Of a stretch of 64,000 nucleotides of DNA, positions 43,825-54,111 are shown in pieces. Numbering within the stretch: position 1 is the first letter of the stretch; each line of letters starts with the position of its first letter. The position numbers were made by a program, and so were the translations under genes. Below the pieces are notes generated by a model. The model was not told the DNA's origin. It saw only the letters and a list, made by a program, of their open reading frames with translations, and made no database searches. Origin of the DNA: Planctomycetota bacterium (GTDB taxonomy: Bacteria > Planctomycetota > Planctomycetia > Planctomycetales > Planctomycetaceae); contig QQVO01000012.1 in NCBI GenBank assembly GCA_003388505.1, forward strand, positions 186,001 to 250,000, written 5' to 3'.

Positions 43825-44862
43825 TCATCCGCCGGTGAACTCATTGCCCACCTTTCGCGCCCGTTCCGGCTTGTCAAGATTCACGCCGAGCGCGACCCCC
43901 ACCTCCACGAGCAGATTCCACCCCGCCGCCATCTGGACGAAAGGCGCCAGGTCGGCCGCATCCTCAACCTGAATCGTCGAAAATCGCGTCGGCCGGGACG
44001 AGATCTCCACCACCGTGAGTCCCACCCCCTGCTCCAGCACCTCGGCGAACTTGTCTTCGGAACCGGGATAAGGGTCGATCCAGATCACAACATCCCCGCC
44101 GTTCATCACTTCTTCTACGCCGTGGACTGCATACGTTCCCTCGAGGTAGTCAGCCGGCTTTCGAGTGATCTCGTTCGTCTTCAACGTCAACTCTTCGGCG
44201 ACGCCGTTGTTGCGGCCCGCCCAGTAGATCGTCCCGGCCTCGGCGATCCGTTTGACAAGTTCCGGATCGATCTCCACCGCCAGTGCTTCGTCGACCTGAT
44301 CGGCCAGGCCGGCAAGTCGCGGCCCCACGGCGTCCCCCCCCGTCGCCAAATCCAGCAGTGCGCGATAAAACAGCGCTTGCTCGACGACACTCTTGGTCGC
44401 CGCCACCGCTCCCTCCTCCCCGCACTCCAGCACGTAGCCTCGCGTTGCCAGAGATTCCAGCCGCGTGTCGGGGAATGCCGTCAGCGAGTACCGGTGCTGA
44501 TGTCCGGTCTGTTTGAGCCTGTCAAACAGTCCGATCACCTCAGCGGTGCGGCCGGAGTTCGACAACGCAAAGACCGCCCAGTCTGTCAGGTCATACTCCT
44601 GCGCTTGCAACCCCGCTTCCGTGTGCAACTCGATCGGCAACCCGAGCCGTCGAGCATGAGTGATCGCGCTCTTGGCCGGAAAGATCCGGCTCGATCCCTC
44701 CCCGGTCATCATCAGCCGGCCGACGTCTCGAATCTCCGCCGCCGTTTCCGCCATCCGGTCACAGTCAAACGCCCGGATAATCTCCGGCACAGCGAGCATG
44801 TCGCGGACCAGGCCGAACTTCGTGTGCGTTTCAATCATTGTGGTTGCCTTATCAGCGATCAC
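43825..44862 (-). CDS. SIS domain sugar-phosphate isomerase/deaminase-like protein
   Basis: The protein has 345 residues and two SIS folds like the isomerase half of GlmS. LMMTGEGSSRIFPAKSA and ALSNSGRTAEVIGLFDR form the first sugar-phosphate site; EGAVAATKSVVEQAL matches the GlmS VASTKAFT motif; the second fold includes TIYWAGRNNGVAEEL and TYAVHGVEEVMNGGD, where GlmS has ELKHG. No glutaminase domain is present, so it is not a GlmS. AgaS- or fructoselysine-deglycase-like enzymes are candidates; the substrate is unknown. An alternative start is the ATG at codon 9. Confidence 0.8.
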   Translation of the reverse strand: MIADKATTMIETHTKFGLVRDMLAVPEIIRAFDCDRMAETAAEIRDVGRLMMTGEGSSRIFPAKSAITHARRLGLPIELHTEAGLQAQEYDLTDWAVFALSNSGRTAEVIGLFDRLKQTGHQHRYSLTAFPDTRLESLATRGYVLECGEEGAVAATKSVVEQALFYRALLDLATGGDAVGPRLAGLADQVDEALAVEIDPELVKRIAEAGTIYWAGRNNGVAEELTLKTNEITRKPADYLEGTYAVHGVEEVMNGGDVVIWIDPYPGSEDKFAEVLEQGVGLTVVEISSRPTRFSTIQVEDAADLAPFVQMAAGWNLLVEVGVALGVNLDKPERARKVGNEFTGG

Positions 44863-44889: not shown

Positions 44890-45153
44890 TCATTTGCCGC
44901 TTACGCCCATCCGCCGTTCTTCAGCAACGCGCACGACATCGGCGCGAAACCGGTCAAACTCATCCACCTCGTAGATGTTTGACTTTCCGGCCTTAAGCTG
45001 CTGTAAGCCGGTCAGTAACTTGTCTTCCAGTTCGTGGCGTTCTTGCAGCAAGCGCAGTGCGGTGTCGAGCACTTCATCGCGACTGCTGAATCGCCCGGAG
45101 CGATACAGAGAGTCGACGAGTGATTCAATTTCCGGGTTGAGCGACAACGGCAT
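44890..45153 (-). CDS. Orphan ribbon-helix-helix (ParD-like) antitoxin-type protein
   Basis: The protein has 87 residues from ATG at 45153 (MPLSLNPEIESLVDSLYRSG). SGRFSSRDEVLDTALRLLQER matches the ParD/CopG ribbon-helix-helix fold. The C-terminal part (LTGLQQLKAGKSNIYEVDEF) is the toxin-binding type of tail. A ParE toxin gene would be expected directly downstream, but only 27 bp separate it from the SIS gene, and no toxin frame was seen on either side. It may be a solitary regulator or the remnant of a toxin-antitoxin pair. Confidence 0.75.
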   Translation of the reverse strand: MPLSLNPEIESLVDSLYRSGRFSSRDEVLDTALRLLQERHELEDKLLTGLQQLKAGKSNIYEVDEFDRFRADVVRVAEERRMGVSGK

Positions 45154-45212
45154 GGCAGGTTGACCTCCGCTGAGTCGTTCACGACTCGTGCGTCTGCAAC
45201 GTTGAACTGAGG

Positions 45213-45276
45213 GGGTGCCACTGGCTCTGCCAGTGCGAAACACAGAAGACGTCAGTCCTGCGATGGACTGGCACCC
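45213..45276. repeat. Three-way-junction element with GGGTGC/GCACCC ends
   Basis: The outer stem GGGTGC (45213-45218)/GCACCC (45271-45276) directly borders hairpin 1, CACTGG-CTCTG-CCAGTG (45219-45235), and hairpin 2, CAGTCC-TGCGAT-GGACTG (45253-45270). All three stems are perfect 6-bp helices; a 17-nt linker separates the hairpins. The element lies between the RHH gene and pfp. It has the shape of a REP-type or small mobile element. Confidence 0.6.
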
Positions 45277-45318
45277 AACCGATCAGTTCAGGATCGGAAA
45301 CGCCTTGTTCAATCGGTA

Positions 45319-46527
45319 TTATACCCGCGCCCGCTTGATCTTCAGGTTCGCATACTCCGGCAACTCCCCCACCAGCGGACGCACGTACTTCAGAAATTCC
45401 GGCGTCACGTCCATCCCGCCGTCCGCAATGTACTCGTCGGGCATGGGCCGCTCCTTGTTCGCCACTTCGCCCAGCGGGATCGTTCCAAACTCGGCCTTAT
45501 ACTGTTTTCCACGTCCCCTCTCGATCGTAACCATCACGCCGCCGTGGCCCTTCACAGCCAGCTTGACCGCCTGACGACCGCAGGCATACGCCTCCTTGAT
45601 GTCGAGTCTCACAGCGCGGTCGGCCGCACACATCTGCAGCGACTCCGTCACCTGAAACTCGCCCCGCCAGCCGAATTCGTCGGAGATGATCCGATGCAGA
45701 ATCATCGCCGCGCTCGCCCCTCCCATCGCGCCGAACTCCACGTTCTGAAAGTTGTCCGTCGTCGACGATGCGCTCACCGGCGAACCGTCGGGGTTCGTGA
45801 TCCCCTCGCCGCAGACGATCGAAACGAAGCCGTGTTCTTCCTGCGCCTCCTTCACGGCCGCCAGAAACCGGTCGCGCATAAAGGGCCGTTCCGGCAGCAG
45901 GATGACGTGCGGCGCCGTCAGCGACTTCGACCGGGCGCATGCCGCCGCTGCCGGCAGCCATCCGGCGCTCCGGCCGACCGTCTGAAAAACCACGAACTGA
46001 TCGACCCGCTGCATGTCCCGCGCCAACAATCCCGCCTGCAGCACGCTCAGCGCGACGTATCGCGCCGCACTCGGGTAACCCGGTGTGTGGTCGACGCCGA
46101 ACAGGTCGTTGTCGACCGTCTTCGGCACGCCCACCCCCGTCATCTCCCAGCCGTGCTCCGCCGCGTATTCGACGATCCGATGAATCGTGTCCATCGTATC
46201 GTTGCCGCCCACCATGAAGAAAAACCGGATGTCGTACTTCTTGAGCTGATCGAGAATCGGAGCAAAATGCTCGTCCGCCAGCTTGAGCCGGGATGAACCG
46301 AGCGCGCTGCTCGGCGTGCTCCGTAGCGCCTTCAGCGTCTCTTCCTTTTCTTTGCCGAGGTCGAGCAGGAAGTCCTCCAGCACTCCCTGAATCCCGAACC
46401 GCATGCCGAAAATACGGCCGATTTTCCTGGAACGGCTGGCGGCATCGACCACGCCGGCCAGCGATGAGTTGATCACAGTCGTCGGTCCGCCGGACTGTCC
46501 GACGATCGCATTTCCAGTTGCAGGCAT
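45319..46527 (-). CDS. pfp: PPi-type 6-phosphofructokinase
   Basis: This enzyme phosphorylates fructose 6-phosphate. The protein has 402 residues. GGND is at 107-110, where ATP-dependent enzymes have GGDG; the Asp in place of the second Gly, with PKTVDND at 135-141 (Lys in place of Gly), is the signature of PPi-dependent enzymes. DQFVVFQTVGRSAGWLP carries the usual substrate residues. The PPi use is inferred from these residues, not proven. Use of PPi would make the reaction reversible and tie it to the pool controlled by the nearby pyrophosphatase. Confidence 0.88.
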   Translation of the reverse strand: MPATGNAIVGQSGGPTTVINSSLAGVVDAASRSRKIGRIFGMRFGIQGVLEDFLLDLGKEKEETLKALRSTPSSALGSSRLKLADEHFAPILDQLKKYDIRFFFMVGGNDTMDTIHRIVEYAAEHGWEMTGVGVPKTVDNDLFGVDHTPGYPSAARYVALSVLQAGLLARDMQRVDQFVVFQTVGRSAGWLPAAAACARSKSLTAPHVILLPERPFMRDRFLAAVKEAQEEHGFVSIVCGEGITNPDGSPVSASSTTDNFQNVEFGAMGGASAAMILHRIISDEFGWRGEFQVTESLQMCAADRAVRLDIKEAYACGRQAVKLAVKGHGGVMVTIERGRGKQYKAEFGTIPLGEVANKERPMPDEYIADGGMDVTPEFLKYVRPLVGELPEYANLKIKRARV

Positions 46528-52191: not shown

Positions 52192-54111
52192 CGTGACAAC
52201 GCCCAAAACAATCCTCCCGTCGACGACATCCCCGAAGAGGAACAACGCGACGACACGATCATCGCCAAGGCGGTCGCAGCGTCACTCGTCGTGATCGGCT
52301 GTGTCGCGGCGCTTGTCGCACTCGGAGTGCTCGGCGTCTACCTGGCCGGATTCTGGGAGCAGGAAGACGCTATTGCCGAGACCGCGCCGGTCGAATTGCC
52401 TCAGGTCCGCGAACTCCCCACCGTCGAGCCCCCCAACATCCCGCTAGCCGACGTGACGGAATCGGCCGGCATCGATTTCGTCCACGAAAACGGCGCCGCC
52501 GGCGAAAAGCTGCTCCCCGAAACAATGGGCGGAGGCTGCGCCTTCTTCGACTACGACACCGATGGCGACCAGGACATCCTCTTCGTCAACTCCAGCGACT
52601 GGCCGTGGAACGAGTCTGCTGAGCCCGCCGCAACCATGGCCTTGTACGCCAATGACAAATCGGGCCAATTCACCAATGTCACGGAGCAGGCAGGACTCGC
52701 CGTCTCGATGTACGGCCAGGGCTGCGCCGTCGGCGACTACGACAACGACGGCGATCCCGACCTGTTCCTGAGCGGCTGTGCCTACAATGAGAACGCCGCC
52801 GACCCCGACTCGCAAACGACCGGCCCCCATCGACTCTTTCGTAATGACGACGGGCGCTTCACCGACGTCACGACCGAAACAGCCGCATCCGGCCGCCCCG
52901 GCGATTGGGGGTCAAGCTGCGGCTGGTTCGATTACGACAACGACGGCGACCTCGACCTCTGGATCTGCAATTACGTCGTCTGGTCGCGCGAGTTCGACCT
53001 CGCCCAGGCGTTTCAACTCGTCGGCGTCGGCCGCGCCTACGGGCGCCCGCAGAACTTCCCGGGAACCTCCTCCCAGCTTCTGCGCAACGACGGAGACGCC
53101 GGCTTCACCGATGTCTCAGAGGAAGCCGGAATCCAGGTCACCAACCGCCTCAGTGGCGAACTGATGGGCAAGTCCCTCGGGCTCTCGTTCGCCGATTTCG
53201 ACGGCGACGGTTGGCTCGACGTCATCGTCGCCAACGATACGGTCCAGAATTTCCTGTTCCACAATCAGCGGGATGGAACCTTCCAGGAAACAGCCGCCTC
53301 CGCCGGCGTCGCCTTCGACATCAACGGCGCCGCGCGCGGCGCAATGGGCGTCGACGCCGGGTGTCCCCGCAACGGCAACGACGCCTTCGCCGTCGCCATC
53401 GGCAATTTCTCAAACGAGATGACCGCGTTCTACGTCTCCTTCCCCGGCATGCTCCAGTTCTCCGACGAAGCGATCGCCAACGGTCTCGGTCCCAACACCC
53501 GGCTGCAGTTGACCTTCGGCGTCTTCTTCTTCGATGCCGACCTCGACGGACGCCTTGACTTCTTCGCGGCGAACGGTCACCTCGAAGAAGACATCGCCCT
53601 CGTGCAGGCCAGCCAGACCTACGAACAATCGCCCCAACTCTTCTGGAACGCCGGGCCCGAGAGCCGCACCGAGTTCATTCCGCTCACCGCAAAGCAATGC
53701 GGCGTCGATTTCTTCGAGCCGCTCGTCGGTCGCGGCGCAGCCTTCGCCGACATCGACGCAGACGGCGATCTTGACGTCCTCATCGCCACAACCGGCGCGC
53801 GGCCCCGCTTGCTGCGAAACGACCAAGCCCTTGACCATCATTGGCTGCGGCTGCAACTCGTCGGCAACGGGACGACCGTCAATCTCGACGCCGTCGGCGC
53901 CCGCGTTGACCTTCACGCCGGCAAAGAGCGGCAGACTCGCTTCGTTGCCAGAACCCGTGGTTACCTCTCACAATCAGAGTCAATCATCACCTTCGGCCTC
54001 GGCGACACACAATCAATCGACCGCATCGACATCACCTGGCCCGACGGCTCCCAACAAACAATCGAGTCACCGCAGATCGATCAACAACACGAAATCAAAC
54101 AAGACTCCTAG
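52189..54111 (+). CDS. CRTAC1-like FG-GAP/ASPIC-UnbV protein, membrane anchored
   Basis: The protein has 640 residues. One membrane helix at about 26-54 anchors it; the rest should face the periplasm. Calcium-type FG-GAP loops are at 121-129, 183-191, 248-256, 336-344, 449-457 and 521-529, all with the DxDxDGxxD pattern. The C-terminal ASPIC/UnbV domain is at about 567-636 (AVGARVDLHAGKERQTRFVA, DRIDITWPDGS). Such proteins often accompany TPR and multiheme proteins in planctomycetes (family knowledge). It follows the pentaheme gene by 60 bp and is probably co-transcribed. Its role is unknown. Confidence 0.9.
   Translation: MRDNAQNNPPVDDIPEEEQRDDTIIAKAVAASLVVIGCVAALVALGVLGVYLAGFWEQEDAIAETAPVELPQVRELPTVEPPNIPLADVTESAGIDFVHENGAAGEKLLPETMGGGCAFFDYDTDGDQDILFVNSSDWPWNESAEPAATMALYANDKSGQFTNVTEQAGLAVSMYGQGCAVGDYDNDGDPDLFLSGCAYNENAADPDSQTTGPHRLFRNDDGRFTDVTTETAASGRPGDWGSSCGWFDYDNDGDLDLWICNYVVWSREFDLAQAFQLVGVGRAYGRPQNFPGTSSQLLRNDGDAGFTDVSEEAGIQVTNRLSGELMGKSLGLSFADFDGDGWLDVIVANDTVQNFLFHNQRDGTFQETAASAGVAFDINGAARGAMGVDAGCPRNGNDAFAVAIGNFSNEMTAFYVSFPGMLQFSDEAIANGLGPNTRLQLTFGVFFFDADLDGRLDFFAANGHLEEDIALVQASQTYEQSPQLFWNAGPESRTEFIPLTAKQCGVDFFEPLVGRGAAFADIDADGDLDVLIATTGARPRLLRNDQALDHHWLRLQLVGNGTTVNLDAVGARVDLHAGKERQTRFVARTRGYLSQSESIITFGLGDTQSIDRIDITWPDGSQQTIESPQIDQQHEIKQDS

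Follow-up and report, generated by a model that had tools for sequence, protein, structure and literature searches.

A probable decayed REPIN with a GTGC foot downstream of a planctomycete pfk gene, and its candidate RAYT

The window analysed here is a 64,000-nucleotide stretch (positions 186,001 to 250,000 of contig QQVO01000012.1, assembly GCA_003388505.1) of the 6.78-Mb genome of a member of the Planctomycetaceae. Between the leftwards-transcribed phosphofructokinase gene (pfk) and the gene that directly follows it in relatives lie a ParD-like antitoxin gene, beside which no toxin gene was recognised, and a short element whose outer arm starts approximately 11 nt, and whose core approximately 42 nt, past the pfk stop codon. 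The features are as follows.

45319–46527, minus strand: phosphofructokinase gene, pfk (Pfam PF00365)
44890–45153, minus strand: ParD-like antitoxin gene, flanking the element on the side away from pfk (Pfam PF03693)
43825–44862, minus strand: gene directly after pfk in relatives (gene order)
45185–45307, plus strand: whole element copy including its outer arms, a probable decayed REPIN (96 identical columns when aligned with the 135-bp consensus)
45185–45212, plus strand: left outer arm, diverged; consensus CTAGTGGCTCATCCAGGCTGAATTGAC (consensus alignment)
45215–45218, plus strand: 5′ foot (tag) of the left REP, GTGC
45219–45235, plus strand: left REP hairpin (hairpin 1), CACTGGC-TCT-GCCAGTG, intact (fold, genome-wide matches)
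45236–45265, plus strand: inter-REP spacer, consensus CGAACCAGAAAGGACGTCTACTCCGCGATG; CAGTCC-containing subtype
45266–45276, minus strand: right REP remnant after a 12-bp deletion (CACTGGCAAAGCCAGTGGCACCC to GACTGGCACCC; copy alignment)
45271–45274: inverted foot of the right REP, GCAC
45253–45270, plus strand: second hairpin (hairpin 2), CAGTCC-TGCGAT-GGACTG, private to this copy
45277–45307, plus strand: right outer arm, diverged; consensus AACCCGTCAATTCAGGATTGAACAACCACTAG (consensus alignment)

The first-pass annotation described the core as three perfect 6-bp stems meeting in a compact three-way junction. All three stems are present and perfectly paired, and both hairpins abut the outer stem (GGGTGC/GCACCC, 45213–45218 with 45271–45276) without a gap; the length given holds for the outer stem and hairpin 2, and hairpin 1 has 7 bp. 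The 17 nt separating the hairpins are unpaired or nearly so. The folding energy is lower than that of all 200 dinucleotide shuffles, and the z-scores are modest, at −2.86 (RNA with flanks) and −3.00 (DNA). For the intact copy L026, from another part of the genome, the z-score is −8.05 and the fold is one long hairpin.

A single occurrence lacking covariation had been named as the outcome that would speak against the element, and single it is not. The sequence GTGCCACTGGCTNNGCCAGTG occurs once within the window (0.02 expected) and has 99 matches at up to two mismatches in the whole genome, compared with 2 for a reversed-pattern control. Each REP consists of a GTGC foot and a CACTGGC-TNN-GCCAGTG stem, and most matches form inverted pairs 51 bp apart that share an oriented 30-nt spacer and arms extending ~28–31 bp outside the REPs. 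The unit is thus an inverted doublet at fixed spacing within ~135 bp, with ends CTAGTGG...CCACTAG at which conservation falls sharply to background, the flanks being unrelated. Of 83 collected copies, 71 could be aligned with 85 or more matching columns, 70 of these being distinct, so the genome holds about 70 or more copies; this is a lower bound because a second stem form, CACTGGCG-TTC-CGCCAGTG, escaped the REP search and was recovered through the outer arms. All but one of 64 examined copies lie outside coding segments, as called by a simple codon-usage score, whereas 64% of random positions fall inside them.

The window copy is damaged. Relative to the consensus it lacks 12 bp of its right REP, a deletion visible in the alignment that could have run between two TGGCA repeats, and with half of this REP lost the copy is probably inactive. 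Hairpin 2 arises from this deletion together with one substitution (CACTGG to GACTGG), and is found in none of the 82 other collected copies; the CAGTCC of the spacer is common to one other copy (L050, at C19:100233). The compact three-way junction is therefore the 'clover' of a decayed REPIN with one arm rebuilt, and is partly a by-product of the 12-base deletion. The rebuilt arm probably arose by chance, and selection for an arm seen in one copy is conceivable.

The interval downstream of pfk is variable among relatives. In most of them the gap between pfk and the homologue of the 43825–44862 gene is about 15–271 nt, and in one it is 417 nt; among the relatives examined, neither parD nor a REPIN of the window type was found directly after pfk, parD being present there in the host genome only. 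One relative (G024, locus L217) has a different GTGC-tagged REPIN at this position, CACGGCTC-TGT-GAGCCGTG, a hint that the interval may receive such elements repeatedly. In another (G015) the hairpin at this place is degenerate, and a single degenerate REP occupies the 417-nt gap (L208). The empty sites suggested as a check exist at the level of gene order and not of bases. In the one same-genus pair compared for REPIN copies (G007 and G060) the flanks are too diverged for a comparison of DNA. An intergenic hairpin between the co-oriented pfk and parD could also serve the host, stabilising the 3′ end of the pfk mRNA or separating pfk from parD transcription, functions of a kind that has been hypothesised for REPs (PMC3733652). 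Such a role, which is compatible with a REPIN origin, is improbable given that the gap in relatives holds different hairpins or none and that half of the right REP is deleted.

The first-pass annotation also entertained a structured RNA, which here would place a conserved RNA, or a riboregulator, at the pfk 3′ end. The stable fold and the position just past the stop codon agree with this reading, but an Rfam search of the element returned no family and only two sub-threshold chance matches, the second hairpin occurs in one copy, and the element is missing after the orthologous pfk genes of relatives. Nor is there a convincing excess of compensatory change in the stems of the 70 distinct copies: double changes number 10 in the outer arms (9.8 in shuffled alignments), 6 in the terminal repeat (3.2 shuffled), 2 in the left REP (0.5 shuffled, with 51 of 500 shuffles reaching 2 and pairing slightly above all shuffles) and 0 in the right REP. 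This lack of covariation among copies fits decaying DNA and not a conserved RNA, and we regard the RNA reading as very improbable. The compensatory changes that had been proposed as a check are confined to comparisons of cognate REPs across RAYT lineages.

The Y1/RAYT-type transposase that was to be looked for is present. The host genome contains ten Y1_Tnp loci, one of which (C13:100890–101486) has the REPs of the element on both sides, at 100834 (+) and 101502 (−). Its product, P0001, matches the NCBIfam REP-associated tyrosine transposase model NF047646 (87.9 bits; cut-off 80) and has the motifs PEHLH (HUH), WQEG (WQ) and YIHENP (Y---NP). Its predicted structure (pLDDT 89) has a Y1 fold and is most similar in the PDB to 4ER8, the structure of a RAYT in complex with a REP hairpin (E = 8e-8). 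Because it is bracketed by the same REPs, this RAYT is likely to be the mobiliser of the host REPINs. A second RAYT relative, truncated, is found next to a degenerate REP where contig C22 breaks off.

The reading of the first-pass 'mobile REP-type unit' as a non-autonomous REPIN, now decayed, whose copying most likely depends on one RAYT encoded elsewhere in the genome, is strongly favoured (probability about 0.92) because of the copy number, sharp ends and intergenic location of the copies, the bracketing of the RAYT, the co-divergence of RAYTs and REPs described below, and the predicted RAYT fold. Under this reading the RAYT, a TnpA_REP-like Y1 HUH tyrosine transposase, would recognise two inverted REPs in single-stranded DNA, for example on the lagging-strand template, where the element could fold either as a clover (an outer stem and two REP hairpins) or as a long hairpin. 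The protein would recognise GTGC as the 5′ foot and CACTGGC as the stem, its tyrosine would cut and join the element DNA, and a copy would be inserted between genes with no target duplication. We infer the cutting, the mobility and the use of the foot as a guide, the mobility from the anatomy of the copies.

The outer arms complicate this picture. The C13 locus lacks the 28-bp arms of the 135-bp element, and the exact mobilised unit is uncertain for this reason. Together with the sharp 135-bp ends bearing inverted arms, and with ends common to the near-identical copies L236, L237, L239, L240 and L248, this would suit a MITE of a conventional terminal-inverted-repeat transposon, in which the CTAGTGG arms are the ends, the REPIN is carried inside and the RAYT explains the core only. 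However, no pair of outer-arm matches on the same contig is spaced like an autonomous element, no target duplication is apparent by eye, and the REPINs of three relatives (G021, G036 and G076) mostly extend no further than the REPs and have no such arms; a MITE is thus unlikely. In one other relative (G007, L127–L131), REPINs of the CACTGGC type appear nested in a longer inverted element with ends GGGTGGCACTGGT.

The first-pass statement that similar sequences occur in other planctomycetes is borne out for the host's own family, where the REP (at most one mismatch) is present in 30 of 60 other sampled members. It is nearly absent from the rest of the phylum: at the same tolerance 3 of 38 genomes from other families of the class carry it, and an exact search across 199 planctomycete genomes met it in a single genome beyond the family. 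In five other genera (G017, G024, G025, G050 and G057) this REP also brackets RAYTs that share 61% or more identity with P0001, while the hairpins around RAYTs of greater distance are mostly different ones with a GTGC or GTGG foot. Among the loci examined in six REP-rich relatives (G030, G021, G042, G036, G023 and G044), no Y1 gene bracketed by the GTGC-CACTGGC REP was found, which may reflect loss, assembly gaps or incomplete sampling of loci. The position of the catalytic tyrosine (Y150 of P0001) is occupied by aspartate in the RAYTs L098 (G017) and L179 (Aeoliella straminimaris), whose sequences suggest that they are inactive though still bracketed by intact REPs.

Across 85 Planctomycetota RAYT records (a few of which are the same genome entered through two collections), inverted hairpin pairs flank 61 loci, compared with 3 of 90 control placements, with no preselection of the foot; pairing flanks across two different RAYT loci gives 32 matches in 255 cases. 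The foot at the 61 paired loci is GTGC in 32–35 and GTGG in 15–16 (about 50 together). Stems differ between RAYT lineages (e.g. CACTGCTGG, of a class other than CACTGGC) while the foot is nearly constant. Mapped onto a 43-RAYT tree, the ten stem classes can be explained by 9 changes, the fewest possible, and 2000 shuffles give at least 19; since tips were chosen for a GTG[CG]-type foot, the tree tests the sorting of stems and not the foot. Several alignment columns are candidates for a residue that tracks the fourth base of the foot, all confounded by phylogeny.

In features and build the system resembles known ones. Like the REPINs and RAYTs of Pseudomonas fluorescens (PMC3116915), it comprises inverted REP doublets at fixed spacing that are mostly intergenic and have a cognate RAYT, and the clover fold proposed there matches the three-stem form of the window element, although the host foot is GTGC and the host REPs lie 28–31 bp inside conserved outer arms. 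It shares with the E. coli REP/TnpA_REP REPtron (PDB 4ER8; PMC8266576) the Y1 HUH fold, inverted REPs bracketing the gene and a tetranucleotide 5′ of the hairpin, but the E. coli foot is GTAG, E. coli REPs need a bulge whereas the host stem is perfect, and P0001 is 19% identical to the E. coli protein in a structural alignment. IS200/IS605 elements (IS608, ISDra2) have a related transposase fold and hairpins inside the element ends; the host element, in contrast, is non-autonomous, its hairpins are inverted rather than on the same strand, and it is no insertion sequence.

The foot is the main difference. Tagged palindromes in opposite orientation and associated with RAYTs make up the GTAG and CGTC super-families, which PMC3733652 reports also for Planctomycetes, with a GTGG variant recorded for O. 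terrae; GTGC is not named in its main text. In PMC6006769, GT[AG]G is the canonical foot, and some subclasses have atypical structures. The host foot is none of GTAG, GTGG and CGTC and lies outside these published tags. A search of main texts in the literature did not find the REP string described as a planctomycete repeat, the 11 texts with a match appearing unrelated, which is a faint sign of novelty; two papers bring RAYTs and planctomycetes together.

Tentatively, these REPs and RAYTs may form a distinct Planctomycetota REPtron class, in which a GTG[CG] foot would act as guide, the stem would be specific to the RAYT lineage, and foot and stem would be read separately; the host REPIN would then have grown to a unit of 135 bp whose hairpins are subterminal, close to the layout of IS200-like elements. 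Such a class would imply cleavage at dinucleotides other than CT, and for GTGC the published guide model would give GC or GA. Taken singly, the window copy is ordinary. Behind it stands a collection of about 40 RAYTs and their cognate REPs from one phylum, with a near-constant foot and at least 10 stem classes tracking the protein tree, so that recognition of REPs by RAYTs, studied so far in a few Gammaproteobacteria, is now directly testable across the stems and feet of different lineages.

Elsewhere in the window, a coding motif of the D-x-D-x-D-G-D kind is repeated at 52535–53777 (direct repeat family D1), and these are possibly calcium-binding repeats.
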